From a virus, in IMG/VR virus record IMGVR_UViG_3300033149_001822, positions 1 to 55,794 of that record: 55,794 nt of DNA; one strand, given 5' to 3'. Shown here piece by piece: positions 2-49,341 of this stretch. A model generated the notes under the pieces. That model worked only from the letters and a program-made list of their open reading frames with translations. It was not told the origin of the DNA and searched no databases. Both the position numbers and the translations under genes were made by a program. The first letter of the stretch is position 1; every line of letters starts with the position of its first letter.

Positions 2-553
2 ATAGCAGGATTAAATTATTATATGTTTGGTGATTCTATGACTATAAAGAATCATCCTTTTTGGTTAAATGTACATGTTTATTCATGTACATTAATTCTT
101 AATAGTTTGCCAAATAAATGGCGTGGAAAATATAATGAAGATACTGATATGTGTTTACAAGTTTTGGCAGATGGATGGTGTACTATTCTTTTCAATGCAT
201 TTTTAGTAGATAAAGTATGGACAATGGCAATGAAAGGTGGAAATACTGACGAACTTTATAAAGGTGATGGTCGATTAAAAATGGCTCGTAGTCTTGAGCG
301 CGTTTGGCCATATGTTGTAAGTGTAATTCGTCGTTTTCAAAGACCACAACATCATATTAAAGATACATGGAGAAAATTTGATACTCCACTTAAACTTAAA
401 CCAGGAATTGATTTATCAAAAATGAAACCTAATGAATATGGAATGAAATTAGTAAAAGTAAAGGAAATTAAAAGTAAAGAACTTAAACAACTTTTAGATG
501 AATATGGAAAAAAGAAATTGAAAGGAAAAAAGCGCAGGAAAAAGAGGAAATAA
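2..553 (+). CDS. Probable TET-associated glycosyltransferase (TAGT), C-terminal part; 5' end outside window
   Basis: The reading frame is open to the window edge, so the true start is probably upstream; the ATG at 23 would be internal. The block YNEDTDMCLQVLADGWC, followed by LFNAFL and a KGGNT segment, matches my recollection of the TET-associated glycosyltransferase family of phages, which adds sugar to oxidised 5-methylpyrimidines in phage DNA. The acidic EDTD is a candidate metal/sugar-nucleotide site. The C-terminus is lysine/arginine-rich (KKKLKGKKRRKKRK), which could help bind DNA. It is coupled by a TAATG overlap to the radical SAM gene. A TET-like dioxygenase would be expected nearby but is not visible. 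Codon use is AT-rich compared with genes after 1.5 kb. The family call is from memory, without a profile search. Confidence 0.6.
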   Translation: MAGLNYYMFGDSMTIKNHPFWLNVHVYSCTLILNSLPNKWRGKYNEDTDMCLQVLADGWCTILFNAFLVDKVWTMAMKGGNTDELYKGDGRLKMARSLERVWPYVVSVIRRFQRPQHHIKDTWRKFDTPLKLKPGIDLSKMKPNEYGMKLVKVKEIKSKELKQLLDEYGKKKLKGKKRRKKRK

Positions 554-1509
554 TGAAAATAAAAAAACAAAAATTTTTTGGAAATATGACTCCCTGGGTA
601 TGGGTGTTAGAGCCAGTTCACGGATGTAATTTGAAATGTGGTCATTGTTGTGCTGAACTATTGGAACATAACAAATTCCATTATATGTCAGAATCGGCAT
701 GGACTAAGACGTGGGAGTTAATTAGAAAGATATCTCCGACATGTCGTATTGATATTTGTGGTATTGTTGGTGAGCCATCTTTGCACCCACATCTTCTAAA
801 GTTTATAAAGATTGCAAGAGAAATTTCACCCCTTAGTCAAATTCAATTAACTACCAACGGAACAATGTTAAAAAATGGTAAATTAAAATTCAGAGATTTA
901 TTAGATAATGGGTTGAATATTGTTTATACAGATCAGTATGGAACTAAGGCACTATTTGAAAAATTAGCATACGAATCTGGATATTCACATTATCAGTATT
1001 ACGATAAACCAGATGATGCCCCGAGTCCGTGGACTTATGTTGGTCCAGACTTAAAGATTATTGTTTTGCAAGATCCACCTGATACTTGGCCTGATTCCAG
1101 ATATCGAGCAGGTTTGTTGGGAAATTGGTATGGTAATTTGGATTGGAAACGTGCGAAAAAATATAAAATGGCTCCACTTGAGAAGCCTTTAACACGAAGA
1201 TGTAATCAGCCATTTCTTTTTGTAAATGTATCATCTGAAGGGAAATATCTTTTGTGTTGCCAAGATGGAATGCATATAACAAAAGATAAATTTGGCACGG
1301 TAAATGATGGTTTTGAGGGATTCGTTGAGTTCTGGTTTGGAAAGGAAATGCAAACAATCCGAAGGCGATTAAAAAATAAGGATCGAGCTTCTACAAAATA
1401 TGCTTGTGCAAAATGTAATATTACTTTTTCAAGATGTGATTTTAATCATTGGACAAACGAACAAGTAGGGCAGTATTACAAAAATGGAAAATGGCATAAG
1501 CTAAAATAA
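553..1509 (+). CDS. Radical SAM enzyme with SPASM-like C-terminal cluster domain
   Basis: 318 aa. Cys25-Cys29-Cys32 (CNLKCGHC) is the CxxxCxxC motif that binds the radical SAM [4Fe-4S] cluster. GIVGEPSLHPHL is the GGEP-type SAM-contact segment, and QLTTNGT follows as usual. Cysteines 217, 235, 236, 285, 288 and 295 form a SPASM/twitch-like auxiliary cluster region. The start overlaps the upstream stop (TAATG), so it is translated with the TAGT-like gene. SPASM proteins commonly modify peptides, but the neighbour points to a modified nucleobase or nucleobase-linked sugar; that substrate is inference. It is AT-rich like its partner. The radical SAM assignment is firm and the role is not. Confidence 0.85.
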   Translation: MKIKKQKFFGNMTPWVWVLEPVHGCNLKCGHCCAELLEHNKFHYMSESAWTKTWELIRKISPTCRIDICGIVGEPSLHPHLLKFIKIAREISPLSQIQLTTNGTMLKNGKLKFRDLLDNGLNIVYTDQYGTKALFEKLAYESGYSHYQYYDKPDDAPSPWTYVGPDLKIIVLQDPPDTWPDSRYRAGLLGNWYGNLDWKRAKKYKMAPLEKPLTRRCNQPFLFVNVSSEGKYLLCCQDGMHITKDKFGTVNDGFEGFVEFWFGKEMQTIRRRLKNKDRASTKYACAKCNITFSRCDFNHWTNEQVGQYYKNGKWHKLK

Positions 1510-27057: not shown

Positions 27058-27066
27058 GGGGCAGTA

Positions 27067-28305: not shown

Positions 28306-28314
28306 GGGGCAACG

Positions 28315-31508: not shown

Positions 31509-31518
31509 GGGGAAAGTC

Positions 31519-34107
31519 TTGAAAAAAATAATCACAATCCTATTTGCAATTTTCCTTGCGACAACTGCAACCGCTCAACAGGAGTACGGACAAGCAAATT
31601 TTAGTAGATCGGACGCATGGACAAAAGATGGACTGAAAGCCCATTGGTTATTAACTCCTGGTACTCGCGGTGATGCAACACAAGGAACGGGGGACTTTGA
31701 AAATTGGACTTCGGGCGGATCTTGTTTTACTTGTCCTGATGCTTGGAATTGTGCTTGTACGGGCACGACCACTCTAGCGGCTGAAACAACCCATATCTAC
31801 AAGACCAATACCTCCATAACATCGGCTGGTGCTACGGGAGCATCTTCAATTTATTTCGAAAAAACTTTTGAAGCGAATAAATGTTATCAGCTTTCTCTGA
31901 AATATCGGGGTGGAACTGGAGGGGTAGAGGATTTCCAGATTCGGATCGTGGATGCGGGAAATACTGATTATTATAATTTTGCTACAGATACATGGCAAGC
32001 TGGTGCTACACAACAAGCGTATGTGAATATACCTGTTGCGTGGACAGCTACTAGTTTGTTTGTCAGGACTGGCGCAGCGGTAAAAACTGATTATCGTATT
32101 TATATTACCACGACTTCTACACATACATTCTACTTTGATGATTTTCAATTGCAAGAATTATTTACTTGCGATGTTTTATCACCAATAGGTGCTAATAATC
32201 TTTCTGTTCCTGTCGGTAGTGATCCTTTATGGAATAAATCTTCAGAATCATTAATTAGGCCAGGAGCAAGTACAGGACCGGCTGGTTCTTATGGAATGTT
32301 GCTCGATGGGACTGATGATTACGTAGAATGTGCCGATGGCGATTGCGAGATGGACCCGGTGAATTGGGAAAGTGGTGGGTTGTTTAGTTTTGCTTGCCGG
32401 TTGATGACTGATACGGTTGCGGCTGGAACTGATTATATAATTACTAAATGGAATAGTGGTGGTAATCAAAGAAGTTGGATTATGGGTAGGGATACTGCTA
32501 ATTTATTTTTCTTTATTTCAGATGATGGAATAAATACTGATAGTAATGGTATTGCGATGTTTACAGAAAATACATTACAATCTTTTGTATCTACTTTTGA
32601 TCCGTCTGGTGGTTCTGGTGCTTGCATTAATAATTTGTATTATAATGCTTATCAGTTAATTACAGATGCTACAATGACCGAATGTATTCCGTTTAATACT
32701 ACTGCTGCTTTTCAAATTGGAGCATTGTCAGGGGCATCTACCTGGTCTGGTGGACTTTTTGAATGCACCCTATGGGACGGAGTACTTTCTGCAATCGATG
32801 CCAACAAATATATCTCCCCATATTTCCCTGGAAATAATAACGGAGATGGTTTCTTCGTGGATACTTGTGGACAGGTTGCTTCGCACAGTACTTGCAGCAC
32901 CCAAAAATGTCGCGATGGTACACCCAATGAGTGCCAAGCCGAAGGAACCGGGGTCATTGCGAATTTTGGTGCGTACACCGAAGTTATTGACAACAATAGT
33001 TACGAAACTCGCACTGGCACTGATGACGATCCAGCGTTTACCGGCTGGACCGAAATTGCCAACGTTGGCGATGGTGGTCGTGCAGACCTGACAGCATATC
33101 GCGCCGATACCAAGCACGGTGATATTTCTATGCGAATGAACGTCAAGGGTGGCGATACTGCCGTAGCATACATATCGATGACTTCGCCTTGTCATAATAT
33201 TGCGCCGGGTTCAACAGTCTACGCGGAGATCGCAGCAAAGGCACTTGAAGGTGATACCAGCATTAGGATTTGGGTTCTCGAATACGTGGGTGCTAACTGT
33301 GTGGGCGCGGGTCCGGGAACTTGGGTTGTCAATGATGTTGAAGCAAGTAGCGAATGGAAAGTTTACGGTGGGCCAGCGACGTTGACCGGTTCGGCTGCAA
33401 GCGTATCGGTAGAAATCTTGGCTCGCTTGGACCCAGGTGAGGCGGGTAGTTTGCTGGTTGATACCGCGAGTCTGAAAGTAGCGGATTATCACACGCCATG
33501 GGCGCACAATCCAAGCGGGGATGTGACGACGACTTACAATTTGAGAGATTATCGATTACACAATCCATTGAGCGATTATGTTGAGTCGGAAGATGGATAT
33601 GCATATGAGTCTGGATTTTGTGCGAGTACTTGGGTTTATACTGATTGGGATGGTGATGACGGAGTAGTACATTTTATGGTTCAAGTTCCTGATACTGGTG
33701 GAACTAACAATATTATTCAGTTAAGAAAACGTGGAGATGATGACATATATTTTTATGTTTACGATGGTGCTGGTGCAGCACGAACACGATCTTTATCAGT
33801 AACATCTGTAAATTGGACTGGTGGAAATTGGAAATATGCAGAAGCGTGTTCAGATAATACTGGTACGATGGTCGCGCATCATTACAATGTTGAAAACGAG
33901 ACTTGGTATGCTTGGACTGATGAAGGTAACGTTGGTACTGGAGTTCAAGATGATCAATCTGATGAATTTCATATTGGACATGCGGGTGGTATCACCTTCC
34001 TTGATGGCTACCAGAACCACGTTTTTATTTCTCCATATTCAGATATTTATCCTATGAAAGGTTTTAATTCTGGAAGACCACCAGTTAATGATGGGAGTCC
34101 GTATTGA
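31519..34107 (+). CDS. Exported protein 5: large LamG-like protein
   Basis: 862 aa; TTG start with AAGGGGAAAG, the same leader type as the preceding signal-peptide genes. Signal peptide MKKIITILFAIFLATTATAQ (AxA cut). LamG/pentraxin-like repeats: GMLLDGTDDYVECADGDCEM, then FSFACRLMTD; later YESGFCASTWVYTDWDGDDG and DEFHIGHAGGITFLDGYQNH. A CBM-like module sits between. Several Cys pairs. Probably a glycan-binding surface or virion protein, paralogous in architecture to the gene at 29019. The last bases overlap the HNH gene. Confidence 0.7.
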   Translation: MKKIITILFAIFLATTATAQQEYGQANFSRSDAWTKDGLKAHWLLTPGTRGDATQGTGDFENWTSGGSCFTCPDAWNCACTGTTTLAAETTHIYKTNTSITSAGATGASSIYFEKTFEANKCYQLSLKYRGGTGGVEDFQIRIVDAGNTDYYNFATDTWQAGATQQAYVNIPVAWTATSLFVRTGAAVKTDYRIYITTTSTHTFYFDDFQLQELFTCDVLSPIGANNLSVPVGSDPLWNKSSESLIRPGASTGPAGSYGMLLDGTDDYVECADGDCEMDPVNWESGGLFSFACRLMTDTVAAGTDYIITKWNSGGNQRSWIMGRDTANLFFFISDDGINTDSNGIAMFTENTLQSFVSTFDPSGGSGACINNLYYNAYQLITDATMTECIPFNTTAAFQIGALSGASTWSGGLFECTLWDGVLSAIDANKYISPYFPGNNNGDGFFVDTCGQVASHSTCSTQKCRDGTPNECQAEGTGVIANFGAYTEVIDNNSYETRTGTDDDPAFTGWTEIANVGDGGRADLTAYRADTKHGDISMRMNVKGGDTAVAYISMTSPCHNIAPGSTVYAEIAAKALEGDTSIRIWVLEYVGANCVGAGPGTWVVNDVEASSEWKVYGGPATLTGSAASVSVEILARLDPGEAGSLLVDTASLKVADYHTPWAHNPSGDVTTTYNLRDYRLHNPLSDYVESEDGYAYESGFCASTWVYTDWDGDDGVVHFMVQVPDTGGTNNIIQLRKRGDDDIYFYVYDGAGAARTRSLSVTSVNWTGGNWKYAEACSDNTGTMVAHHYNVENETWYAWTDEGNVGTGVQDDQSDEFHIGHAGGITFLDGYQNHVFISPYSDIYPMKGFNSGRPPVNDGSPY

Positions 34108-34912: not shown

Positions 34913-35617
34913 ATGGCAGTCACACTTTCAAGTCTTGCAGCGGAAGTCAGGGAGATGGCGGCAGACCCGGACATCACGGAGCTTCCTGATTCAAAGATCG
35001 AGAACATCCTGGACAAGAGGGTACTGAGGTGGATAAACCGTCGCCGTCCTGGCAAGGCTATAAGCTACTTCGAGACAGTGGCCGCACAGCAGGACTACGA
35101 CGAGAAGCCGTCCAATGCTTACCGCGTCACGCAGGTCTGGTGGATGGACGCCAACTTCGAGTTTTTCAGCCCTTCCATGAGGTACGTCCCGAGCGATCAG
35201 GATATGACGTTGCAGATGAGCGGGTTCAATGTGCTCGATAACCCGGCGCTGGTGGAGGCGTTCTTCAAGAAAGTGGACGCCTATAAGAACAACTTCAAGG
35301 GCCATGGCGAGGAGAACGAGGCGGGCCTCATCAGGTTAGTCCCCTATCCTGCCAGCACAGGCGACAAGGTTTACTACGAGTACTCATATCCCATTTGGAG
35401 TGCCGTCAAGGACGTGAGCGAGGTGTTCCTTGAGGGTGTGAGGTTCAAGGCTACCGAGCTGGTTTACGATGTTTTGGCAGCAAAGAGGGGAAGGGTCCGT
35501 TCTGGCCGGACGTTCACAGGAGGTGGTGGTGCTAACGAAAAAGAATTGGCAATCAAGTACGGTAAAGAGGCTAATCGCGAGGTCCCAGTTTCCTCGGCGG
35601 TGTTCTCCAGAGGATAG
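34913..35617 (+). CDS. Head-tail adaptor candidate
   Basis: 234 aa. A helical N-terminus (LAAEVREMAADPDITELPDS), then aromatic beta segments (AYRVTQVWWMDANFEFFSPS; DKVYYEYSYPIWSAVKD) and a helical end resemble phage neck/adaptor proteins that attach below the portal. GC-rich like the head genes, unlike both neighbours' islands. It stands between head genes and the inserted cassette, with the remaining neck genes resuming at 47146. Assignment from pattern and position only. Confidence 0.5.
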   Translation: MAVTLSSLAAEVREMAADPDITELPDSKIENILDKRVLRWINRRRPGKAISYFETVAAQQDYDEKPSNAYRVTQVWWMDANFEFFSPSMRYVPSDQDMTLQMSGFNVLDNPALVEAFFKKVDAYKNNFKGHGEENEAGLIRLVPYPASTGDKVYYEYSYPIWSAVKDVSEVFLEGVRFKATELVYDVLAAKRGRVRSGRTFTGGGGANEKELAIKYGKEANREVPVSSAVFSRG

Positions 35618-35619
35618 TC

Positions 35620-37542
35620 ATGAACTACAAGATGAAGGTTGAGCTTACGTCACCGGACGGCCAGGTGATTGTGACGGACAAGGTGACTCCGGTAGTCGGT
35701 AGGTGTCAGCGAATAAAGAGGGATATGGATGTAGTCAAGGAGTGGTGGGAAGGGAAGTCCATTGACCTTATAGTAGTGGCAGATGGAGAACTGCATCATT
35801 TCCAGAGGTGCATTTCAGTCCTTGCCGAACGCACTTCCGAGTGGTGCAACTGCAAAATGATAGTTGTCAATGATTACGACTTCAATTCTGACTTTATGCA
35901 AAGAATGATATTCGAATCCTCGTTCATCAGCATGTTGGTTCATTACGTTGACATCAGCAGCCTGAAGGCAGTCGATAACACGATCAAGGAAAATACCTGG
36001 GGTAATTGGATAGTAATCGTTGACCAGAATGTTGTTGTCACTGAGGGTTGGCTTGATAGGATAATCGCCACGATACACGCGAATAGGAACGCTGCAATGG
36101 TAGTTCCTTGGAGCAGCAAGCGGATACCGCCTGAGATGGGTGGTAACTATGTCGAGACAGCAGAGCGAATATCTAGGACAGTCAGCATCGCGAATCATAT
36201 GGTTGCGTTGCCGGGCCTGTTTTGCCTGGCTATAGAGCGAGAAGCTTTCGAGGAAGCTGGTGGGTTTCTAGACGAGTCGGTTGCCAACTTGTACATGAGG
36301 ATGAGTAGGAACGGTAGGATCGCTATTCGGGCTGACGACTGTTACGTAAAGGACAGCACCAAGGGCGTTTCCGAGGTGGGTAAGTGGTTGTTGGACCCTG
36401 TTGATTACATGAAGTTCATCAACGAGTGGGGTAAGGATTCATACGATGCATATGAGATAAGGGCTGGCCGGGATATGGCTGATGAAACGGTTGTCATGAT
36501 GATGAAGGAAAAGACGGACAGAAAAAAAGTTGTGTTCGTCATGCGTGAGGCACCGATCTGCGGGATGGTACTCGCGATAGTCCACATTTGCAATGAGTTG
36601 ATAGAACTTGGGTGGGATGCTTCCTTCGCTTGCACGAAGCTTGAGAATGCTCACAAGAAACTCATGCCCATGAGGTTTACTCCATACGTGTTCCGCGACG
36701 ACGTGGAGATGATAGACACTTTGCAGAAATTGTCAGACGCCAATATCATTGCAACGATTTGGTCCACGGCAAAGACTGTCAAGAAGATATGCGACAACAA
36801 AAACAATCTTGTTCCTGCCTACTTTGTGCAGGACGACGAGCGGAAGTTTCGTCACAGTAGCGGTGAGCTTTACGCCAAGCCAAAGGACGTGGAGGCAACT
36901 TATGGAATGTTCAAGAATGTCGTCGTCAATTCGGATTGGGTACTGGAGGAGATGCAGAAGCTTGGATATGCCGGTGAGAAGATTGGCATTGGGGTTGACA
37001 CCCTCATGTTCCACCCTGAGGAAAAGTCAAATGGTAGAGTTCGTATTATGGCACATTGCAGACCTTCAACCCCGAGAAGAGGTTGGTCGTTTATTGCTGC
37101 GGTTATAAACCAGGTATTCAAGAACGGGAACGTGGAGTTCGTTACATACGACGAGGAACCGGAGGGACTGTACGTTCGCAATCACAGGCACCTGGGGAAA
37201 ATTAGCCCCGAGCAGCTTGCAATGGAAATGAACCATACGCACATCTTCCTCGAGGGGAGCGAGCGCCAGGGGTGGGGGATGCAAGCCCTTGAAGCCATGG
37301 CCAGTGGTTGTGCGCTCGTGTGTACGGACAACTACGGAATCCATAACTTCGGAACGGATGGCTACGATTGCGTGATAGTTCCATATGCTGACGTTGAAAA
37401 CACTGTAAGGGTAATCAACAGGCTGGTAGGTGACGTGAAGGAAAGGGAAGCTCTGGCGAAGTCTGCGAGGGAAACGGCGGAGCATTTCAACTGGCCGGTC
37501 ATAGGAAGTGCATGGGATAGGTTCTTGAAAAACACAAGGTGA
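35620..37542 (+). CDS. Two-domain glycosyltransferase (GT-A plus GT-B)
   Basis: 640 aa. Residues about 45-300 form a GT2-like nucleotide-sugar domain (SIDLIVVADGELHHFQRC; GNWIVIVDQNVVVTEGWLDR, with VDQN in place of a DxD). Residues about 305-640 form a GT4-type GT-B domain (VVFVMREAPICGMVLAIV; IGIGVDTLMFHPEEKSNG; EGSERQGWGMQALEAMASGC, the E-x7-E donor-binding segment). It may add two sugars in sequence. First gene of an 11.5-kb glycan island. Starts three bases after the adaptor stop. Confidence 0.8.
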   Translation: MNYKMKVELTSPDGQVIVTDKVTPVVGRCQRIKRDMDVVKEWWEGKSIDLIVVADGELHHFQRCISVLAERTSEWCNCKMIVVNDYDFNSDFMQRMIFESSFISMLVHYVDISSLKAVDNTIKENTWGNWIVIVDQNVVVTEGWLDRIIATIHANRNAAMVVPWSSKRIPPEMGGNYVETAERISRTVSIANHMVALPGLFCLAIEREAFEEAGGFLDESVANLYMRMSRNGRIAIRADDCYVKDSTKGVSEVGKWLLDPVDYMKFINEWGKDSYDAYEIRAGRDMADETVVMMMKEKTDRKKVVFVMREAPICGMVLAIVHICNELIELGWDASFACTKLENAHKKLMPMRFTPYVFRDDVEMIDTLQKLSDANIIATIWSTAKTVKKICDNKNNLVPAYFVQDDERKFRHSSGELYAKPKDVEATYGMFKNVVVNSDWVLEEMQKLGYAGEKIGIGVDTLMFHPEEKSNGRVRIMAHCRPSTPRRGWSFIAAVINQVFKNGNVEFVTYDEEPEGLYVRNHRHLGKISPEQLAMEMNHTHIFLEGSERQGWGMQALEAMASGCALVCTDNYGIHNFGTDGYDCVIVPYADVENTVRVINRLVGDVKEREALAKSARETAEHFNWPVIGSAWDRFLKNTR

Positions 37543-37546
37543 AGAT

Positions 37547-37756
37547 ATGATAACAAAAAAGACATTTTGCAAAGAGAAGTTCTTTACCGAGAAGAGACTT
37601 ACCAACTGTCCTTTTTACATAATGAAGACCCATACGGATATGGCTTGCAGTCTTTCTGACAAGATCGTTATTTGCAATTACGAGATCGACCACAAGTTTC
37701 CAGAAGATTGTCCGATGAGGAATGATTCCGTAACTCAGATATTTTTCATAGAATAG
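37547..37756 (+). CDS. Small cysteine-containing hypothetical protein (69 aa)
   Basis: GGTGAAG precedes the ATG. Cysteines at CKEKFF, NCPFYI, ACSLSD, IVICNY and DCPMRN could bind a metal cluster. It sits between a glycosyltransferase and a radical SAM enzyme, so an accessory or carrier role is possible. No family recognised. AT-rich. Confidence 0.55.
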   Translation: MITKKTFCKEKFFTEKRLTNCPFYIMKTHTDMACSLSDKIVICNYEIDHKFPEDCPMRNDSVTQIFFIE

Positions 37757-37764
37757 AGAATAAA

Positions 37765-39051
37765 ATGTCCAGACCATCAATTTGTTTTTTGAATCCACCT
37801 CATCCATATCTTATTCAGCCGAAGGCACAGGCCCCACTCGGGATGCTTTACGTTGCGGCTTCTGTGAGAAAAGCTGGATTCGATGTTAAGTTCGTTGACC
37901 TGAGTGACAAGCAGTATGGAGATGATTTCAATCTGCCAGAAGCAGACATTTATGGAATCACCGGGACAATACTTGATGTAAAGTCAATACATGTAGTGGC
38001 AAGGCAGATCAAGAAGAACAACAAGTGGAGCAAGATAATTGTCGGTGGTCCTGTATCACTCAGTCCGGCGCACCTCGATGCAGAATTGGTTGATTCCATT
38101 TTGATTGGGGAAGGTGAGATTGAGATATTCAATGTGCTGGAAGACTATCCCAGATTGAAGTCGTTCTACAAAGCAGACAGGATAACAGACCTCGACTCGC
38201 TTGAGTTTCCCGCTCGTGATCTGTTAGGTACTCATCTTGGGGGCAATGTCTTTGCCCGTTATCAGAAGTACTATGAGGGAGGGAGCACGGTCATATCCAT
38301 GAGCAGGGGTTGCCCGTTTGATTGTACATTTTGTGCGTCACCGAGGATATGGGGAAGGAGGATTATTCACAGGAGCGCGGAGAGTGTGGCTGCGGAAATA
38401 GATGAGGTCGCTGAAAGGTATGGTGTCAGACAGCTCAGGTTTAGCGACGACAACATGACGTGCGACAGGGATAAACTTGAGAGTCTTTGCAGGCACCTCC
38501 TGGGAAAGAAGATTGCTTGGCGTGCGAGCATACGTGTACGCCCGAACGATGTTGACATGTTCAAGATGATGAAGAACGCCGGATGTGTCGAGGTGTGTTT
38601 CGGAATAGAGAGTGGTGATCCGAATGTTCTCCATACTTTGCACAAGAAGGCGACTGTCAAAGAAAACAGGATCGCAATAATGAACGCCAAGGAGGCAGGA
38701 CTTGTCGTTCGAATATTGTTCATGATAGGTACTCCTGGTGAGACAGTTAAAACGGTTGACAGGAACATAGAGTTCTTGAACAGTGTTGACAAACATTACG
38801 ACACCATTGCCATCACGAACTTTACCCCGTTGCCAGGGACGGCGGTAGCAGACGATCCTGGCAGCAATGATTGCGAGATTCTTTGCTACGATGTAGACAA
38901 GTACAATCTTTGTTTATACGGCCCTGATGGTAAGCACAACGAGTGGGAGAATCATATTCGACCGTTTGGTCTTACGTTGGAGCAGTTGACCGAGAACAAG
39001 AAGCGAATGGTGAAGTTCATAATGGAAACAGGGAGAAGTAACAATGGCTAG
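37765..39051 (+). CDS. Class B radical SAM enzyme with B12-binding-like domain
   Basis: 428 aa. Residues 1-135 have the Rossmann-like cobalamin-binding layout (PLGMLYVAASVRKAGFDVKF; ADIYGITGTILD; KIIVGGPVSLSP), without the classical DxHxxG. Cys183-Cys187-Cys190 (RGCPFDCTFC) is the radical SAM cluster motif, and CFGIESGDPNVLHTLHKKAT is typical of the family. Such enzymes methylate or rearrange unreactive carbons in sugars, lipids and antibiotics. In this cluster it could modify a sugar. Overlaps the next gene by 8 bases. Confidence 0.85.
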   Translation: MSRPSICFLNPPHPYLIQPKAQAPLGMLYVAASVRKAGFDVKFVDLSDKQYGDDFNLPEADIYGITGTILDVKSIHVVARQIKKNNKWSKIIVGGPVSLSPAHLDAELVDSILIGEGEIEIFNVLEDYPRLKSFYKADRITDLDSLEFPARDLLGTHLGGNVFARYQKYYEGGSTVISMSRGCPFDCTFCASPRIWGRRIIHRSAESVAAEIDEVAERYGVRQLRFSDDNMTCDRDKLESLCRHLLGKKIAWRASIRVRPNDVDMFKMMKNAGCVEVCFGIESGDPNVLHTLHKKATVKENRIAIMNAKEAGLVVRILFMIGTPGETVKTVDRNIEFLNSVDKHYDTIAITNFTPLPGTAVADDPGSNDCEILCYDVDKYNLCLYGPDGKHNEWENHIRPFGLTLEQLTENKKRMVKFIMETGRSNNG

Positions 39052-40075
39052 GCTGAAGATTCTGGTTTTCCATCCGAAGGAGTGGGTGGGAAGCAGCAAC
39101 GAGAACGTGGAGGTCAGGCATGTGTCGATTGGTGGCAGCATTCCAAGGAGGCTCAACGGGACACCTTCGGAGGATGGTATAGGTGAGGTTGCAGACTCCG
39201 AGGGGATACGCAACTTCATGGACGCGGTTGAGCAGTTCCGACCGGACATTTTTCTTTTTGGGATACACTTCCAGTTCATGCCTTCATACGTTGCCAGAGC
39301 AAGGGCAATGTGTCCTGAGATGAAGGTAGTTATGCATTATACCGACCAGAGGAAGGATGTTCACGATGATGTTGGGAAGTACCTCGGTTTGATTGACTTG
39401 TTGTTGGTGACTAACCAGGACGAAGCAGACCATCAGAAGTATCGTGACTTTGGCTTTCCGAAGGTTGCCACGTTGTACGATGGGATCAATCCTAACAAGT
39501 ATTATCCAATGCCTGTAGAAATCAAACACGATGTCTTCTTCGGAGGGAACAATCACTATGGATTGTACGAGAGCATAAAAAAGTCTGGTCAAAAACCACC
39601 AGAGGTTCTGAACTTTTCGAAAGGAAAGTTTCGCCATGATTTCCTGATGGAGGTGAATAGCCAGTTTGATTTGCTCGTGCGTGGTCGGTTGGGGTGGGAC
39701 GAGCAGGTGTTTTATGTGAAGCCGATGAGGTTCCACCCGAGATATTTGTCTGCTATCAGGGAGGCCAAGATAGTCATAGGGACTGCTGTGGCTCCCCGTT
39801 ACAAGCTCTATATGCGCAGGATGTGGAGGGGGATAGCGTCTGCCAGAATGTTGCTCATGGAATACGTGCCGGGAATGGAAGAGGACTTCGAGAACCACGA
39901 GCACATGGTCTGGTTCAGGACGATAGAAGAAGGAATTGACTTGATCAGATATTACTTGAATAACGACGACGAAAGGGAGAGAATCGCCAAGAGTGGATAC
40001 CAGTTGATACTGGACAATCATACTTGCGATCACAGGCTGGATGAGTTCGAGCAAATTGTCAGGAGGGTTTTCTAA
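39044..40075 (+). CDS. Tandem glycosyltransferase A (CgeB-like GT-B)
   Basis: 343 aa, first of four adjacent paralogues. Shared frame: N-terminal hydrophobic strand and E/DW motif (LVFHPKEWVG), VSIGGSIPRR, ATLYDGINPN, HDVFFGGNNHY, and a C-terminal donor-binding part MLLMEYVPGMEEDFENHEHM, then VWFRTIEEGIDLIRYYLNND. The last part resembles the CgeB / Glyco_trans_1_2 family. Sequence is GC-richer than copies C and D. TAATG overlap with copy B. Confidence 0.75.
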   Translation: MARLKILVFHPKEWVGSSNENVEVRHVSIGGSIPRRLNGTPSEDGIGEVADSEGIRNFMDAVEQFRPDIFLFGIHFQFMPSYVARARAMCPEMKVVMHYTDQRKDVHDDVGKYLGLIDLLLVTNQDEADHQKYRDFGFPKVATLYDGINPNKYYPMPVEIKHDVFFGGNNHYGLYESIKKSGQKPPEVLNFSKGKFRHDFLMEVNSQFDLLVRGRLGWDEQVFYVKPMRFHPRYLSAIREAKIVIGTAVAPRYKLYMRRMWRGIASARMLLMEYVPGMEEDFENHEHMVWFRTIEEGIDLIRYYLNNDDERERIAKSGYQLILDNHTCDHRLDEFEQIVRRVF

Positions 40076-41079
40076 TGGGCAAATCGACAGCAGTAGTCTT
40101 GCATCCAAGGGATTGGGAGAGGTACGAATCAACTTTGAAGATCGTTCATGCTTCCATAGGCGGCAAGGTTCCCAGGAAGCGGGACGGGACGGCGACGTTC
40201 GACGGCTATGCTGACGTGGTGACAGAGGAAGGCAAGCAAGATTTGTTCGACAAGATAGAGGAGTACCATCCAGAGATTTTCCTATTTTGGATGCACGTCG
40301 GAATGAACCCACAGATCATAAAGAGGGTAAAGGAGATTTCTCCGAGGACAAAGATAGTTGTTTGGCATGGGAACCATCGCTACGAGTTCCCGCACGGTGT
40401 CAGGATGTACCTCAAATACCTCAGCATGGTGCTCATCAACTCCCGTGAGCCTAGTCAGTACAAGATGTACAAGGATGGCGGTGTACCTAACGTGGCGACC
40501 TTGTGGGACGGGTTTAATCCTGACGACGTGGAGCTTGAGGACAAGGAACCTGAGTTCGATTGTATATTCGGTGGCAACTCGTATTTGGGAAGGACTAACA
40601 ATCTACCGGGACAGGATTTTCCAGGTGGTCTGCTCAGATACAATTTGATTGTCGAGGCAAACAAAAGGTTCAACGTTGCTGTGCTTTCTGACGTACCAGA
40701 GGGTTGGCCATTCAAGGTGTTGCCAGCGGCATTCCACCCTAAGTACACGAACGAATTGCGAAGGGCAAAGATAACTCTGAACATTAACCATTTTCCAGGT
40801 TTTTACCAGGCGTATACGAGGCGAACCATTCGCAGCATTTTTGCCAAGCGTCTTCACCTGACACTGTATATCCCAGGCATGGAGGAGCATTTCGAGAATC
40901 ATGAAAATATTGTCTGGTATCACGACTTGAACGAGGCGATGGAGTTGATTGGTTATTACCTTGAGAACGATGACGAGCGCGAGGAGATAGCTGAAAAGTC
41001 TTGGATGCACGCTTGCAAGCATTTCACATTTGAGAATAGACTTAGAGACTTTGAGAAAATTGCAAAGGTACTATTATGA
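40075..41079 (+). CDS. Tandem glycosyltransferase B (CgeB-like GT-B)
   Basis: 334 aa. Paralogue of its neighbours: VVLHPRDWERYEST, HASIGGKVPRKRDGTATFDG, ATLWDGFNPDD, FDCIFGGNSYLG, then LTLYIPGMEEHFENHENIVW and a YYLENDDEREEIAEKSW tail. It keeps all common blocks, so it is probably active; divergence lies mainly in the acceptor half (residues 60-180), which fits different acceptor sugars. ATGA overlap with copy C. Confidence 0.75.
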   Translation: MGKSTAVVLHPRDWERYESTLKIVHASIGGKVPRKRDGTATFDGYADVVTEEGKQDLFDKIEEYHPEIFLFWMHVGMNPQIIKRVKEISPRTKIVVWHGNHRYEFPHGVRMYLKYLSMVLINSREPSQYKMYKDGGVPNVATLWDGFNPDDVELEDKEPEFDCIFGGNSYLGRTNNLPGQDFPGGLLRYNLIVEANKRFNVAVLSDVPEGWPFKVLPAAFHPKYTNELRRAKITLNINHFPGFYQAYTRRTIRSIFAKRLHLTLYIPGMEEHFENHENIVWYHDLNEAMELIGYYLENDDEREEIAEKSWMHACKHFTFENRLRDFEKIAKVLL

Positions 41080-42104
41080 CAAAGCCGACAGTGGTTTTCA
41101 CCAGGCCAGAGGATTGGGTTGAAGGCAATTACGAAACAGACGAGATGAAACTTGTCTACGTTCCTTTAGGTGGATCTGAACCAAAGCTAAGGAATGGTGG
41201 TCCTGCTGGAGAAGCTGTTGGGGTTTTGGCTACTCATGAGGGTGTGGATAAGCTGATTCAGGAGTTTCAAAAACACAAACCAGAAGTATTTTTTCATTGG
41301 GTTCATTACGGGGAATATGACCACAGGGTTATGAAGGAGCTTCGTAAAATTAGTCCAAAAACTTTGTTTGTTTTCGGGCAAGGCAATCAGGTTCTCCATA
41401 AGAAAATTATCGACAGATGGATAATGGAGAACAAGGAATTTGTTGACGTAGTGTTGACCAACAATTACAGTCCGAGCCAACACAAGATTATGAAAGATTA
41501 TGGTGTCAAGTACACTGATATTCTATATGACGGGTTTATTCCTAGACTGCATGGTCGTCCAGAATTGCCTGTTGAGTTTGATTGTTTTTTTGGTGGTGGC
41601 AATACAGTCAAAAGTGTGGATCACAAGGGCAGATTTCCGTTGAGCAAATTTAGGTTCATGTTCATCAATGAGGTTAGCAAGAGATTTGATTTGCATGTGC
41701 GTGGAGGCGGTTGGAATGATATTGAGAGTCATTCGTACTTGTACGCATTCGATTATATCGACACTTTCCGAAAGGCAAAAATAGTTTTGGGAATAAATCA
41801 TTTTGATTTTGAACGGTACTACACAAAACGAACTATTTATGGAGGTGCATCAGGCAGGATGCTGATAACGAGGTACATCCCTGAGATGGAGAAGGATTTT
41901 GAGAACCATGTAAACATGGTCTGGTTCCATTCTATTGATGAAGCTCTTGAATTAATAGAATACTATTTGAACAACGATGAAGAACGAGAAAAGATAGCCA
42001 AGCAGACAAAGGAATATTTTTTGAAGAATCATAGTTGGCAAGCAAGATTAAGGGACTTCGAAGGTGTGATGAAGCGATTGAAAGGGGTTTTCAATGAGTG
42101 GTAA
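41076..42104 (+). CDS. Tandem glycosyltransferase C (CgeB-like GT-B)
   Basis: 342 aa. Blocks: VVFTRPEDWVEGNYETDE, VYVPLGGSEPKLRNGGPAG, ILYDGFIPR, FDCFFGGGNTV, ITRYIPEMEKDFENHVNMVW, EYYLNNDEEREKIAKQ. Closest to copy D in wording and in its AT-rich codons. It reads as a complete enzyme. Overlaps copy D by 11 bases. Confidence 0.75.
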   Translation: MTKPTVVFTRPEDWVEGNYETDEMKLVYVPLGGSEPKLRNGGPAGEAVGVLATHEGVDKLIQEFQKHKPEVFFHWVHYGEYDHRVMKELRKISPKTLFVFGQGNQVLHKKIIDRWIMENKEFVDVVLTNNYSPSQHKIMKDYGVKYTDILYDGFIPRLHGRPELPVEFDCFFGGGNTVKSVDHKGRFPLSKFRFMFINEVSKRFDLHVRGGGWNDIESHSYLYAFDYIDTFRKAKIVLGINHFDFERYYTKRTIYGGASGRMLITRYIPEMEKDFENHVNMVWFHSIDEALELIEYYLNNDEEREKIAKQTKEYFLKNHSWQARLRDFEGVMKRLKGVFNEW

Positions 42105-43116
42105 ACCTACAGTAGTTTTCACAAGGCTAACGGATTGGGTCAATGGAGGATATTCCAGTGATGTTTTGAATCTTGTCTATGTCCAGGTTGGTGGTGTGAA
42201 TCCTAGGAAACACGATGGCAGTCCAATTGCCGATGGAATAGGTGACATGGTTACTGACGAGGGTCGGCAGGATTTATTAAAGTCTGTTAAGAAGTACGAG
42301 CCGGAAATACTTCTTCATTTTGTTCATAGAAGAATAGGAACGAATTTGATGACAGAAATAAAGAGGATTAGTCCGAAAACGTTGATAGTGGTGGCTGATG
42401 GGAACCAGCCACACGCGATTAGTGCATATGTAAAGAAACATAGAAAATATATTGATGGGGTGTTGTTGAATTCGTCCAATGCAGAAAGCTATGCCAAGTA
42501 CAATGATTTGAATTATAAACCAAGAATGATTGGAAAGTTGTGTGATGGGTTTGTTCCTGTTCACCATGAATTGGGGAATGTTCCAATCGAACACGATTGC
42601 TATTTTGCGGGAAGCAATCTTTTCAAGAGAAGGGGCAGACATGAAATTGTTTGGAGATTTCCAAACAGTAAGAATAGAAATGAGTTCATTGTTGCAGCAA
42701 AGAAAAAATTTGACTTGATAGTTCATGCAAATGAAGGTAACTGGCCTTTTCCTGTCAAGAAAATTTTACAGTACCCGGAATTCTACAGGGCTTTTCACAA
42801 GGCAAAAATAAGCCTGGGAATGAACCAGTTCAATCTGACAAGATATTATACCAGGAGATTGATACACGGTGGGGCGTCGTCGTCCCTTTACATAACCGGG
42901 TATATTCCTGGCATGGAAAAGGACTTTGAGAATCATGTTAACATGGCATGGTTTCACACTATCGAGGAAGGTCTTGAGCTAATTGAATATTATTTGAACA
43001 ACGACAAAGAAAGAGAGAAAGTGGCAAAACAACAACGAAAACATTTTTTGAAGCATCATTCTTGGGAAGCCAGGTTGAAGGAATTTGAAAAGTATGCAAA
43101 GAAGATTCTGAAATGA
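42094..43116 (+). CDS. Tandem glycosyltransferase D (CgeB-like GT-B)
   Basis: 340 aa. Blocks: VVFTRLTDWVNGGYSSDV, VYVQVGGVNPRKHDGSPIAD, KLCDGFVPV, HDCYFAGSNLF, ITGYIPGMEKDFENHVNMAW and EYYLNNDKEREKVAKQ. GAGTGG start region with GGGG upstream lies inside copy C. Recent common origin with C is likely. ATGA overlap with the methyltransferase gene. Confidence 0.75.
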   Translation: MSGKPTVVFTRLTDWVNGGYSSDVLNLVYVQVGGVNPRKHDGSPIADGIGDMVTDEGRQDLLKSVKKYEPEILLHFVHRRIGTNLMTEIKRISPKTLIVVADGNQPHAISAYVKKHRKYIDGVLLNSSNAESYAKYNDLNYKPRMIGKLCDGFVPVHHELGNVPIEHDCYFAGSNLFKRRGRHEIVWRFPNSKNRNEFIVAAKKKFDLIVHANEGNWPFPVKKILQYPEFYRAFHKAKISLGMNQFNLTRYYTRRLIHGGASSSLYITGYIPGMEKDFENHVNMAWFHTIEEGLELIEYYLNNDKEREKVAKQQRKHFLKHHSWEARLKEFEKYAKKILK

Positions 43117-43901
43117 AAATTAAAAAGATGACATTTTCTCCGGTTATGGCTGTTAAAATGAATGCAATGTTTCATCAGATTTTGCAGCCGAAGTTTCACA
43201 ATGTTCTGGAGGATTTGATAGAGTTTACTGGACTTGATCGTAATGAAGTGCTTTTTAGAATAATAAAGAAACTTGGCAGGGATTGGGGTGCAAGGGGTTG
43301 GTTCAATAACGAGTTCGATTGGCACGATCCGTCATCGAATCGTGAGTTGTGTTGGTTTTATGTCAGCGCTCAAAGTTATTTGTTTAGCAATGCAAGACGG
43401 CCATATTGGAATATGCTTAAGTACGTCAAAGACGGGCCTGTTTTGGATTATGGTTGTGGAATTGGACAAAATATTCTTGAACTGGCCAAAAGAGGTTTTG
43501 AAGTACGTTATCTTGAATTGGGACTTTTGCAGCAAGAGTTTTTGAAGTTCAGAATTATAAAACACCACATTACAAACGCTGTGGAATTGGATTTGTGGTC
43601 TTCAGGTTTTTTGAATACGATTGATTGTGTCAAAGGCATACAATATGGAACAATACTTTTACAACATGTCTTGGAGCATATTCCATCATACCAGAACACT
43701 CTCAGGCATCTCATTTCAAATTTGAAGGTGGGTGGAAGAATAATTGAGCACAGTCCGTTCAGGAGTTCGCCTGGGAATTCAGAGTCGCCTCAAATGCATT
43801 TGAAGGCAGAAATTACGATGAAAGAAGCGATGATCGGTATGAAAAAAATATACGGTGGGGATTCTGTCAGACGTGATGCCAATGTATGGGAAAAAATATG
43901 A
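43113..43901 (+). CDS. SAM-dependent methyltransferase
   Basis: 262 aa. DYGCGIGQN (from residue 112) is the SAM-binding motif I, with LEL about 20 residues later as the acidic ribose contact region; ILLQHVLEHIPSY is motif III/post-I. The N-terminal 100 residues are an extra domain (LQPKFHNVLEDLIEFTGLDR). Located among glycosyltransferases, it likely O- or N-methylates a sugar, capping a glycan. AT-rich. The next gene begins on overlapping codons. Confidence 0.8.
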   Translation: MKIKKMTFSPVMAVKMNAMFHQILQPKFHNVLEDLIEFTGLDRNEVLFRIIKKLGRDWGARGWFNNEFDWHDPSSNRELCWFYVSAQSYLFSNARRPYWNMLKYVKDGPVLDYGCGIGQNILELAKRGFEVRYLELGLLQQEFLKFRIIKHHITNAVELDLWSSGFLNTIDCVKGIQYGTILLQHVLEHIPSYQNTLRHLISNLKVGGRIIEHSPFRSSPGNSESPQMHLKAEITMKEAMIGMKKIYGGDSVRRDANVWEKI

Positions 43902-44884
43902 AACCAACAATTTGCATTTTGCAAAAACAAACACATTTTGACAAACCTTCATTGATTGAATCTTCTTCTGTCAAGGAGAAATTTGATGTCGTGAAGGATT
44001 ATTTCTATAACATTCCCAACAAAACAGATATTGTCTATACTCAAACTTATTTTGATAGAAAAATTCTGGAGATATTGGAGGAATGGCGCGGTCGTATTGT
44101 CATTCATGTGGGTGGTAACCTTTGGAATGAAAGCAAAGGTGTGGGGTTAATCAAGCAGGTCGTGGACATCATGAACCGTTCCCAGACAATAGTTGTCTGC
44201 AACGGACATGGGATATTCGACATTGTGAAAAAGAATCTCAATGACAATGCCAATGTGATGTGTCTTCCAGGTGGTTTATGGGGCACTGACAATTCTCGCT
44301 ACGGAATACAGCCGGACAGATTTATCCCAAAGGATGATTACTCACTCAAGAACAAGAAGAGGCCAAGTGTGGTAATGTCCATAAACTTGACGGTTGAAAG
44401 GAAATGGGCAGGGATTTTTTTGTTCCTTTCATCTATCAAGAAAATCGTAAGAAAAATGAAAATAAAAATCACATGTGCAGGAATGATAAAATCCAATCAT
44501 GATTTGGTTAAAAGTTTGTCGAACAGGTACGGTGTGAGATTTTTAGAATACACTGAAGATTGGCCTCAGATTTTGCAGGATTCTGATTTGTTTATTCACC
44601 CTAGCACGTTTGATTGCTTTCCTAGATCGGTCTGTGACGCAATGTGTACAGGACTTCCTATTGTTGCTTATAACATGCCAAGCACTAGGCACGTGAGCGA
44701 CAAGTTGCATTTTGTAGACCCACTTGATCATGATTATGTGTCAGATAGTGTCGAGTGGTTTTTGTCGAACGAAGATGAGCGCAAGCAGTTGGGCGAGGTT
44801 TTGCTTGTGGAGGCTCTTGAGAAGACCGAGAAGCATCGTGGAGACTACGCAGGAATATTGGAAGATATACTTAGTTCAACTTAA
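43898..44884 (+). CDS. GT4-type glycosyltransferase
   Basis: 328 aa from ATG 43898, which overlaps the methyltransferase stop; an in-frame ATG at 43886 is an alternative. GGRIVIHVGGN-like first Rossmann half (GRIVIHVGGNLWNESKG) and a C-terminal half with HPSTFDCFPRSVCDAMCTGL (the E-x7-E region replaced by D/C residues) and PIVAYNMPSTRHVSDKLHFV. Typical GT4 donor site with SINLTVERKWAG. Not closely related to the four tandem copies. Confidence 0.8.
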   Translation: MKPTICILQKQTHFDKPSLIESSSVKEKFDVVKDYFYNIPNKTDIVYTQTYFDRKILEILEEWRGRIVIHVGGNLWNESKGVGLIKQVVDIMNRSQTIVVCNGHGIFDIVKKNLNDNANVMCLPGGLWGTDNSRYGIQPDRFIPKDDYSLKNKKRPSVVMSINLTVERKWAGIFLFLSSIKKIVRKMKIKITCAGMIKSNHDLVKSLSNRYGVRFLEYTEDWPQILQDSDLFIHPSTFDCFPRSVCDAMCTGLPIVAYNMPSTRHVSDKLHFVDPLDHDYVSDSVEWFLSNEDERKQLGEVLLVEALEKTEKHRGDYAGILEDILSST

Positions 44885-44900
44885 TAAAGAGGATAATAAC

Positions 44901-45863
44901 ATGAGATTTTTAATTTCTGGCGGTGCTGGATTCATCGGATCTAACATTGTCATGGAGCTGGTTAAGTTGGGCCATGACGTTATGGCGATTGACAATCTCA
45001 TCACCGGAAGCAAAAAGAATCTCGAAGAGGTGATGGGCAAGATCGAGTTCGTTTGGGACGATCTCAGGAAAATGGACGTTTGTAAGAACATCTGTGGGGG
45101 TGTTGACTACATTTTACACCAGGCTGCTCTTGGCTCTGTCCCGAGGTCTGTCAAGGACCCGGTCCTGTCCAACGAGAACAACATAAACTCCACGTTGAAT
45201 CTCCTGGTTGCCGCGAAGGACGCTGGTGTTCGCAGGTTCGTGTATGCCTCGTCGTCGGGTGTCTATGGGAATTGTGAAGGGGAGTTCAAGGTGGAGACAA
45301 TGGAGAGCAAGCCGATCAATCCCTACGCGATTTCAAAGACTGCCAGCGAAGAGTATGTCAAAATATTCCATAAGTTGTACGGGATGAAGACAGTGGCGTT
45401 GAGGTACTTCAACGTATTCGGCCCGCAGCAGAATCCACACGGTGCCTATGCAGCGGTTGTCCCGGCGTTCATTTTGAATGCTTTGAATTATGAAAAATCA
45501 ATTATCTATGGCGATGGTAAACAGGCCAGGGACTTCACGTTTGTTGATGATGTGGTTCAAGCAAACATTCTGGCTTGTCAGGCAGGAGAGGAAGTTGACG
45601 GACAGGCTATCAATGTTGGAGGTGGTCACACTGTTTCGGTAAACAAATTGCACGAGATGATAGGTCGTTTCACCGACTGTCCACTTGAACCAAATTATGT
45701 AGACAAAAGAAAGGGTGATGTTATGAATAGTCGTGCAGACATTGGCAAGGCAATAAAACTGCTTGGTTACAAGCCTTACTCTGAAAAAACTTTCGAGGAA
45801 TGTATAGGCGAAACAGTCGAGTGGTACAGGAGCAGACATGAAGCTCAGCGTCATAGTAACTAG
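44901..45863 (+). CDS. NAD-dependent sugar-nucleotide epimerase
   Basis: 320 aa from ATG 44901 (AAAGAGGA upstream; longer in-frame starts lie inside the previous gene). GGAGFIGSNI at residues 7-16 binds NAD; Tyr142-x3-Lys146 (YAISK) and the preceding SSSGVYG are the catalytic extended-SDR set. GDGKQARDFTFVDDVVQA is typical of UDP-glucose/UDP-GlcNAc 4-epimerases (GalE/WbpP group). It would supply a donor such as UDP-galactose or UDP-GalNAc to the island's transferases. GC-richer than its neighbours. Confidence 0.88.
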   Translation: MRFLISGGAGFIGSNIVMELVKLGHDVMAIDNLITGSKKNLEEVMGKIEFVWDDLRKMDVCKNICGGVDYILHQAALGSVPRSVKDPVLSNENNINSTLNLLVAAKDAGVRRFVYASSSGVYGNCEGEFKVETMESKPINPYAISKTASEEYVKIFHKLYGMKTVALRYFNVFGPQQNPHGAYAAVVPAFILNALNYEKSIIYGDGKQARDFTFVDDVVQANILACQAGEEVDGQAINVGGGHTVSVNKLHEMIGRFTDCPLEPNYVDKRKGDVMNSRADIGKAIKLLGYKPYSEKTFEECIGETVEWYRSRHEAQRHSN

Positions 45864-47142
45864 TTATAACAGGTGGCCGCTTTTGAAGAACGCGGTCGAT
45901 TCTGTTATCAGGCAAGAGTTACATTCTTATGACAAAGGTGAAATGGAAATCATTGTTGTAGACGATTGTTCTGTGCAGAAAGGTGTTCGTGAGTATCTTG
46001 AAAGGATGCACAAGGAAGGACTGATAAGATACATTTCATCTGGACCGTATAGTGAGGAGTTTAGGAAGACACACAAGATGGTGTCAGTGTCTATAAACTT
46101 GGCACTAAATGTGGCGAAGGGAGATTATATCACCTATCTGTGTGACGATGATTTATTCGTGCCAGGTCGCTGTAGGAAAATGATGGATATTATCGATCAA
46201 GCTGTATGTGAAATGGTAGTCGGTCGTGTCAATTGGGTTACATGGGACGGGAGGAAATTCCCGCAGGAAAAAATAGGGTTCTACAATTACAAGAAACCAT
46301 TTGAGGAGGGACACGAGGAGTTGGTAGAAGCACTAAAGAAGTCTGGTTCGAATTTTATCTGTCATGACACGATCATGCATTGTAAGACCAGTCGAAGATG
46401 GCCAACAAATAATATACATACTCCAGTTGACTGGAGATTTTGGTGCAAGTTAAGTAGTGATGGTTTTAGAGTAAAGACGATTGACGATGTTGTAGCCGAA
46501 GCAATTTTGCCGGAGACTTGGAGAAATGGAATAACCATGGAACAAGTTCTGGCCAACAGATCATTGGGAGGTTCTATTATGGGTGAAGTAAAACAAGCGA
46601 AGAATGTGTCGAACAAGGTGCAAGTTCTGAAGGATGACAAGGGCACTGTCGAGCCAGGCGGAAGGGTTGATGCCAGCGAAGTTACCTTGGCTAATGGAAG
46701 GTTGTGGCCAGGATTTGCCTGGGACGATTCAGTCACTGTACATGATAAGAATGTTCCATTGAAAAAGAAGGGAAAGCCAAAGAAGCAAAAGAAACCAACG
46801 GAAGTCGCTGAAAAGAAACCGGAGTTCGTTGAGGATAAAAATCCTGAACCCAAACCTGAACCTGAGAAGAACATAGTCTTGCCGAAAGAGACTGCTAAAG
46901 AAAAGGCTGTGAGGGCAAAAATTGCAGACTCAAAAAAACCAACTCCGAAACCAATTTCAAAACCGACCCCGGTTCCTGAGGTAAAACCGAAAAAGAAAAC
47001 AATTCTTCGAAAAAAGACAACCAAGAGAAAACCAGCCAAGAGAAAATCGGCAACCAAGAAGAAGACCGCAAAAAGAAAGACAGTCAAGAAGAAGGCAGCC
47101 AAGAAAAAGACCGCAAAACGCAAGACTGCAAAAAAGAGGTAA
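45838..47142 (+). CDS. GT2 glycosyltransferase with histone-H1-like lysine-rich tail
   Basis: 434 aa; starts inside the epimerase gene (AGGAG upstream, 26-base overlap). Residues 1-230 are a GT2 domain: LSVIVTSYNRWPLL, VVDDCS, and LCDDDLF (103-105) as the metal-binding DxD. Residues about 295-385 form a Pro/Lys/Glu linker. The last 50 residues are Lys/Arg/Ala/Thr only, with repeats such as KKKTAKRKT, like histone H1 or bacterial H1-like proteins that coat DNA. The combination suggests a glycosyltransferase held on DNA, or on a polyanion such as teichoic acid or LPS. Very unusual fusion. Confidence 0.85.
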   Translation: MKLSVIVTSYNRWPLLKNAVDSVIRQELHSYDKGEMEIIVVDDCSVQKGVREYLERMHKEGLIRYISSGPYSEEFRKTHKMVSVSINLALNVAKGDYITYLCDDDLFVPGRCRKMMDIIDQAVCEMVVGRVNWVTWDGRKFPQEKIGFYNYKKPFEEGHEELVEALKKSGSNFICHDTIMHCKTSRRWPTNNIHTPVDWRFWCKLSSDGFRVKTIDDVVAEAILPETWRNGITMEQVLANRSLGGSIMGEVKQAKNVSNKVQVLKDDKGTVEPGGRVDASEVTLANGRLWPGFAWDDSVTVHDKNVPLKKKGKPKKQKKPTEVAEKKPEFVEDKNPEPKPEPEKNIVLPKETAKEKAVRAKIADSKKPTPKPISKPTPVPEVKPKKKTILRKKTTKRKPAKRKSATKKKTAKRKTVKKKAAKKKTAKRKTAKKR

Positions 47143-47145
47143 ATC

Positions 47146-47574
47146 ATGGGGACAAAACTTCCAGCCTCGGTCGCGGCTGCTGATGCCGAGGGAGACAACC
47201 TTGGGACCGAGCACATACTGATAGAGAAACATGCTTGGCAGCAAGACCGGGCAATGCAGTTCAATTTGACTGCTGACATTTTGAGGTATACGAGTGTTGG
47301 TGCAGATCCTTCCACTAGGAACAAAGGCACGCAGACATTGGTTGCTGACTTGGCAGCTTTATCGTGCTCCATTGACGATTACACCAAAAACTTTGAGAGA
47401 AAGTACGGTGGAGTTGCCGAGGAAGGCGACAAGTTATTTACGTTCTACGATGTCAAGGTGGTGTCGTCAGACAGGATAGAGTTTGACGGAAACATCTGGT
47501 TCCCTGTGAACGTCTGGTTTCAAGCTGAGTCAGGAAGGTGTGAGGTCCAGGCACGTATAGGTGGCGAGGACTAG
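47146..47574 (+). CDS. Head-completion or neck protein candidate
   Basis: 142 aa; AAAGAGG sits in the lysine-tail codons upstream. A mixed alpha/beta sequence (DYTKNFERKYGGVAEEGDKL; RIEFDGNIWFPVNVWF). It starts the structural module after the glycan island and precedes the gp10-like gene, the usual place of a head-tail joining protein. No family recognised by sequence. Confidence 0.5.
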   Translation: MGTKLPASVAAADAEGDNLGTEHILIEKHAWQQDRAMQFNLTADILRYTSVGADPSTRNKGTQTLVADLAALSCSIDDYTKNFERKYGGVAEEGDKLFTFYDVKVVSSDRIEFDGNIWFPVNVWFQAESGRCEVQARIGGED

Positions 47575-49311: not shown

Positions 49312-49341
49312 TGACAGTCGGCCATGTGGCTGTCATTTTTT
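49312..49341 (+). terminator. Rho-independent terminator after the tail tube gene
   Basis: TGACAGTCG (49312-49320) and TGGCTGTCA (49327-49335) pair over 9 bp with two G-U pairs around loop GCCATG, followed by six T. It closes the tube gene transcript directly before the repeated leader at 49343, mirroring the capsid terminator arrangement. Confidence 0.8.

Follow-up and report, generated by a model that had tools for sequence, protein, structure and literature searches.

The linear viral record IMGVR_UViG_3300033149_001822 of the IMG/VR database was analysed in its entirety (55,794 bases, hereafter the window); it is cut at both ends, leaving the first gene without a start and the last without a stop. 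Between positions 35620 and 47142 it carries an island of ten enzyme genes for sugar chemistry, co-directional on the + strand and mostly overlapping. We tentatively read this island as a late-expressed pathway that would glycosylate one or more virion proteins with a short oligosaccharide, and we assign to this reading a probability of roughly 0.45. We favour it because the island shares a unit with neck and tail genes, has no membrane or lipid-carrier gene, and finds a Corndog-type precedent in the same module of other phages.

The ten enzymes are seven glycosyltransferase (GT) proteins, a B12-type radical S-adenosylmethionine (SAM) enzyme, a methyltransferase, and an epimerase acting on uridine diphosphate (UDP) sugars; one small open reading frame (ORF) accompanies them. 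All Pfam assignments in the island lie above the curated cut-offs:

35620..37542, + strand: large GT of 640 amino acids with a C-terminal GT4 domain (PF00534, 48 bits, 1.2e-12, residues 521-618; also PF13524 and PF13692)
37547..37756, + strand: small ORF of 69 amino acids, cysteine-containing, no assigned function (open frame with a ribosome-site-like sequence upstream)
37765..39051, + strand: radical SAM enzyme with a B12-binding domain (PF04055, 1.1e-22, 81 bits; PF02310, 9.6e-10, 39 bits)
39044..40075, + strand: CgeB-type GT-B glycosyltransferase, paralog 1 (PF13524, 1.8e-20)
40075..41079, + strand: CgeB-type GT, paralog 2 (PF13524, 2.1e-16)
41076..42104, + strand: CgeB-type GT, paralog 3 (PF13524, 2.8e-22)
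42094..43116, + strand: CgeB-type GT, paralog 4 (PF13524, 4e-17)
43113..43901, + strand: class I SAM methyltransferase, probably a sugar O-methyltransferase (PF13489, 45 bits, 1.6e-11)
43886..44884, + strand: GT4 glycosyltransferase (PF00534, 60 bits, 2.3e-16)
44901..45863, + strand: UDP-N-acetylhexosamine 4-epimerase (GlcNAc/GalNAc), WbpP/WbgU type (PF01370, 209 bits; WbpP structure 1sb8, 1.4e-82)
45838..47142, + strand: GT2 glycosyltransferase with a lysine-rich, histone-H1-like C-terminal tail (PF00535, 77 bits, 2e-21)

An earlier sequence-only reading of this DNA had given the same coordinates and gene content, which the ORF list and Pfam bear out, and had counted at least seven GT domains; seven are recognised. 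The N-terminal half of the large GT looks GT2-like by eye only and has no Pfam match. For the epimerase we took 44901 as the start rather than the listed 44724, because homology begins at residue 60.

Proposed glycosylation of virion proteins

In the proposed pathway the epimerase, judging from its family, would supply UDP-GalNAc or UDP-Gal from UDP-sugars of the host. The first sugar would be attached to a Ser, Thr, or Tyr by one of the GTs, the likeliest candidates being the GT2 and the large GT, and the target would be a protein of the capsid, tail tube, or fibre. Elongation of the chain would then fall to the GT4 and the four CgeB-type GTs, each contributing a linkage or sugar of its own. 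The methyltransferase would O-methylate a sugar, the radical SAM enzyme would deoxygenate or C-methylate one, and the finished glycan may shield or alter the surface of the particle.

The individual enzymes can be placed with differing precision. Close homology, the SGGAGFIG loop, and a YAISK (YxxxK) motif assign the epimerase to the WbpP/WbgU type, its substrate being predicted. It has DVMNS where WbpP has DVRHS; the serine in this position presumably makes N-acetylated UDP-sugars acceptable as substrates. The radical SAM enzyme (37765..39051) falls below every cut-off of the NCBIfam equivalogs. Its closest solved structure is AprD4 (6fd2, 5e-21), which deoxygenates an aminosugar ring in apramycin synthesis; with 93 bits against the AprD4 equivalog, for which the cut-off is 500, it can be assigned at the superfamily level only, and we infer from that superfamily a probable role in sugar deoxygenation or C-methylation. 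The four CgeB-type GTs belong to the CgeB/GT4-like GT-B family (PF13524) both by score (61-80 bits each, above the Pfam cut-off) and by the GT-B fold of an AlphaFold model built from their four-sequence alignment (predicted local distance difference test, pLDDT, 79.7). This model resembles GT4-fold enzymes, including BshA and PglA, and also matches CgeB-like proteins of phages and giant viruses.

The island is closely joined to the genes on either side, and the strongest terminator-like site on the + strand between 33.9 and 50.5 kb lies beyond its end:

34913..35617, + strand: head-tail adaptor candidate, left flank (SU10_adaptor PF24175, 20.3 bits, below the cut-off of 27)
47146..47574, + strand: next neck gene, stopper candidate, right flank (by position only; no family match)
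49312..49335, + strand: terminator-like hairpin, 9-bp stem plus T-run, after a putative tail-tube gene

Gaps of only 2 bp and 3 bp separate the island from the adaptor candidate and from the next neck gene, respectively; neighbouring genes within the island overlap by up to 26 bp or lie at most 16 bp apart. Given this tight spacing, the single strand, and the strongest terminator-like site only at 49312, expression of the island together with the late virion genes is the natural inference. No clear membrane protein occurs among the island products, hence no flippase, polymerase, or Gtr-type membrane enzyme.

The precedent comes from mycobacteriophages. In Idergollasper (Corndogvirus) the gene order is portal, O-methyltransferase, unknown, GT, GT, protease, capsid, adaptor, and stopper. 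According to passages of PMC11600133 (citing Freeman et al. 2023) and of PMC12363180, cluster O enzymes of this type modify capsid and tail-tube proteins; the same passages, with one of PMC12619734, report glycans of the Corndog/Che8 type on capsid and tail tube. Like the island, the Corndog and Che8 sets combine a methyltransferase with several GTs, which in Idergollasper are placed among the portal, protease, and capsid genes of the head module, and the recipe of a methyltransferase plus GT2-type proteins is common to both. They are smaller, Idergollasper having two annotated GTs and one unknown and Che8 having three GT genes, compared with the seven GT proteins of the island, and they differ in content: neither an epimerase nor a radical SAM enzyme occurs among the scanned genes of those sets.

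Several observations weigh against virion proteins as acceptors. Che8 gp110, which is essential for capsid glycosylation, is a GT25 enzyme (PF01755), and this family, found also in Idergollasper gp36, has no match in the island. We detected no sequence homology of the island to the Che8 or Idergollasper enzymes. An acceptor protein or sequon cannot be named, and for the lysine-rich tail of the final GT a nucleic acid would be at least as good a partner. The flanking neck genes are assigned mainly by their order, and location within a head module does not settle the matter: Vibrio phage 1.076.O carries a member of the DNA glycosyltransferase family TAGT between portal and head-morphogenesis genes (L018:6534-7703). 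The island shares with the mycobacteriophage type its GTs and sugar methyltransferase in company with a virion module; it appears to work most like these sets, yet it has no GT25 of the Che8 gp110 or Corndog gp38 type that would make it one of them.

In the literature that we considered, phage virion glycosylation has been described only for a few mycobacteriophages with small gene sets. Here a phage with a T4-like head has, within its neck operon, seven GTs that include a four-fold expansion, together with an epimerase and a radical SAM enzyme of predicted sugar-modifying function, which suggests that elaborate phage glycans extend beyond those mycobacteriophages; the locus is a compact one in which to decide among protein, DNA, and host surface as the acceptor.

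Composition and rarity of the island

The four tandem CgeB-type GTs form a single clade against ten outside homologs (100/100), within which paralogs 3 and 4 are sisters with 45% identity. The G+C content at third codon positions (GC3) shifts at 41076: paralogs 1 and 2 have about 0.6, resembling the structural genes, whereas paralogs 3 and 4 (about 0.41), the methyltransferase, and the GT4 lie at 0.39-0.44. A recent duplication of the quartet in one step, which the single clade might suggest, had to be modified on account of this difference between the pairs; the array therefore either dates far back or arose in two or more steps. By composition the island is a mosaic containing a probably old duplication. 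Its flanks have no convincing repeats that would mark an insertion.

For comparison we used 36 records (ca. 2.0 Mb). Of these, 20 contain TAGT (1.15 Mb), and the other 16 (0.86 Mb) have a gene for a gp23-type capsid protein and lack detectable TAGT; all are fragments, so that absence is relative. Above the cut-off, none of these records has a match to PF13524, PF00534, or PF00535, and three contigs have a weak GT2 match. The present record has five PF13524 matches, two PF00534, and one PF00535, with one domain counted in two families. A 206-kb viral contig, chosen for its CgeB-type GT, has one PF13524 match, two PF00534 (one weak), and four PF00535. The density of GTs in the window is not due to chance, and such islands are rare, not unique.

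Close relatives are few. Queries of IMG/VR with the capsid and terminase returned one near-identical contig only, which ends at window position 32714, before the island; queries with the adaptor, radical SAM, and GT2 proteins returned no relatives there. A tblastn search of INPHARED with four island GTs gave no match.

The 206-kb contig itself holds a larger sugar island (L003:6784-20306 and L012:1-6309) with GTs, one of which has a short basic tail, sulfotransferase-like genes, aminotransferases, epimerases, and methyltransferases; TAGT is not detectable on that contig.

Other possible acceptors and neighbouring enzymes

The sequence-only reading had named virion proteins, the host surface, and phage DNA as possible acceptors, and these are indeed the candidates to be weighed. 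It is rather unlikely, in our estimate, that the cytoplasmic GTs of the island divert or extend a host precursor of lipopolysaccharide core, O-chain, or capsule, so that infected cells and debris would no longer bind this phage or its competitors. Similarity of the island GTs to the polysaccharide enzymes TuaG, PglI, WcaA, and EpsE speaks for it, as do the bacterial relatives of the CgeB-type GTs, which at several loci lie in regions also encoding sugar epimerases, and the 206-kb contig, where a comparable sugar island stands away from recognisable virion genes. Host-recognition clusters of pelagimyophages also carry many GTs near structural genes for host recognition, vary, in two of them by radical SAM cassettes, and have been read as modifying the O-chain (PMC7029224); they are, however, associated with tail-fibre genes in T4-like genomes and have GT8 as their commonest family, whereas here neck genes are split by GT4, CgeB-type, and GT2 enzymes. 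The Gtr operons by which temperate phages convert the O-antigen offer a weak likeness, that of the island GT2 to a GtrB-like PHROG; the island has neither a membrane flippase (GtrA) nor a membrane-anchored protein of GtrB/GtrC type. Against the host surface stand the absence of any membrane protein, flippase, polymerase, Gtr-like gene, or lipid-carrier machinery from the island, its company of late structural genes, which is poor timing for exclusion, and the lack of a recognisable integrase among the scanned genes. We regard as very improbable a variant in which the island glycosylates, before their export, the products of the five signal-peptide genes just upstream (25801-34107), which would then act at the cell surface or join virions. 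The five consecutive signal-peptide-like N-termini, a Thr-rich repeat in one of these proteins, and the likeness of the GT folds to cytoplasmic adhesin O-glycosyltransferases (SdgB and accessory-Sec GtfC among others) are in its favour, but this likeness extends to nearly all GT4 enzymes, the GC3 of the signal-peptide block differs from that of most of the island, and no GtfA/GtfB-type pair was found at the cut-off.

The DNA of the phage itself comes into consideration through two genes at the left edge of the window:

2..553, + strand: TAGT (DNA glycosyltransferase family), cut by the contig end, with a basic C-terminus (PF20691, 46 bits, 6.9e-12, 3.6e-15; phrog_842, 5.4e-16)
553..1509, + strand: SPASM radical SAM enzyme coupled to TAGT (PF04055, PF13186)

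The island might extend a sugar placed on the DNA by the TAGT system into an oligosaccharide on cytosine, the H1-like tail tethering the last GT; we consider this unlikely. The sequence-only reading had attributed glycosylated phage DNA to enzymes at this edge, and PF20691 confirms the TAGT family, a mark of clusters based on 5-hydroxymethylcytosine (5hmC), though one that lies outside the island. Members of this family add a second sugar (glucose) to glucosylated hydroxymethylcytosine in T2 and T6 (PMC13216743), and disaccharides on phage cytosine are documented (PMC13390438). Among the 64 proteins of the window, the two most basic C-termini are those of the island GT2 and of TAGT: the last 76 residues of the former, most basic from about residue 359 and encoded by a 15-nt repeat, include 37 K+R and 2 D+E. 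The tail did not hold up as a mark of DNA GTs and was rejected as such, since five TAGT relatives have short lysine ends only, and the 206-kb contig, in which TAGT is not detectable, also encodes a GT with a basic tail. Although TAGT is present in this record as in phage DNA glycosylation systems (gentiobiosyl-hydroxymethylcytosine made by TAGT in T6; arabinosyl-dC in RB69 and NP), it lies 34 kb from the island, which contains no recognised 5hmC-forming gene. In the window as a whole a C5-methyltransferase (PF00145) is absent, with controls working, and no 5hmC-forming gene was recognised, dCMP hydroxymethylase not having been searched by name; the TET model PF12851 had no match in the window and none in any control either. 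In the 20 TAGT contigs no match to any of the three GT families scores above the cut-off, and because TAGT-bearing contigs do without such islands, we place this one outside the usual DNA-glucosylation kit. DNA is thus not the best supported acceptor (the distance, the missing 5hmC gene, and the TAGT contigs without islands), nor would a DNA glycan be new in kind, as the sequence-only reading had it, given the disaccharides documented in PMC13390438. DNA glycans as such are known, and novelty would require a longer chain or new sugar chemistry. A chain of at least four sugars on TAGT-primed DNA, with a deoxy- or C-methyl sugar made by the radical SAM enzyme and the last GT held by its H1-like tail, would be longer than, and chemically distinct from, the disaccharides in the literature that we considered, but we think it quite improbable. 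A 2024 paper by Pyle et al., to go by its title, reportedly deals with gene clusters and diverse DNA glycans.

An anti-defence function of the island was also considered and rejected, the similarities found with PADLOC being weak only. At the left edge (2-1509), the TAGT gene overlaps the start of the SPASM radical SAM gene, which has a weak viperin-like similarity, and the two may form a DNA-modification pair. The five consecutive genes with Sec-type signal-peptide-like starts (25801-34107) lie within the head module, and exported proteins are unusual in a virion module. One of them (gene 29019) has a domain of the phage tail-protein family phrog_5939 (1.7e-30). In another (gene 25801), 70 nt at 26320-26389, within the Thr-rich repeat, are missing from the near-identical contig (L001), where the frame is shifted; the difference is either real variation or an assembly collapse.

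Flanking genes and layout of the record

Upstream of the island, the head region encodes a T4-like portal protein that contains an intein, a protease of the S77 family, and a capsid protein of gp23 type, and an HNH protein is also encoded upstream. The sequence-only reading had placed the island between neck genes. Its wording of head-tail adaptor "candidate" for 34913 is a fair one at 20.3 bits, and neck genes on both sides are likely from gene order; family searches of the products of 47146, 47617, and 48183 gave no match, and a structure model of the 47146 product folded alone is unusable (pLDDT 42). Six genes lie between the island and the end point of this region, a tape-measure protein at 50382 (phrog_991, 3e-50), which is the only product from the island to that point with a convincing family match. 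In Che8 the order is adaptor, stopper, unknown, terminator, major tail protein, two chaperones, and tape measure, and Idergollasper keeps this neck-tail order with small additions. From this order and from their position relative to the tape measure, we assign putative neck or tail-completion roles to 47146, 47617, and 48183. A location of the island between neck genes is likely on these grounds, not proven.

The lineage is a mosaic with one near relative in IMG/VR. The terminase (11573-13735) is nearest to those of ca. 80-kb Vibrio siphophages, whereas the capsid (23432-24637), portal, and protease are of T4 type at about 25% identity. The portal gene (15131-17953) is split by the intein, which has an HNH-type insertion. 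Rfam and tRNA scans of the window returned nothing, and an intergenic array of six 11-nt tandem repeats (AAAGGTAGATT) occupies positions 6757-6825.

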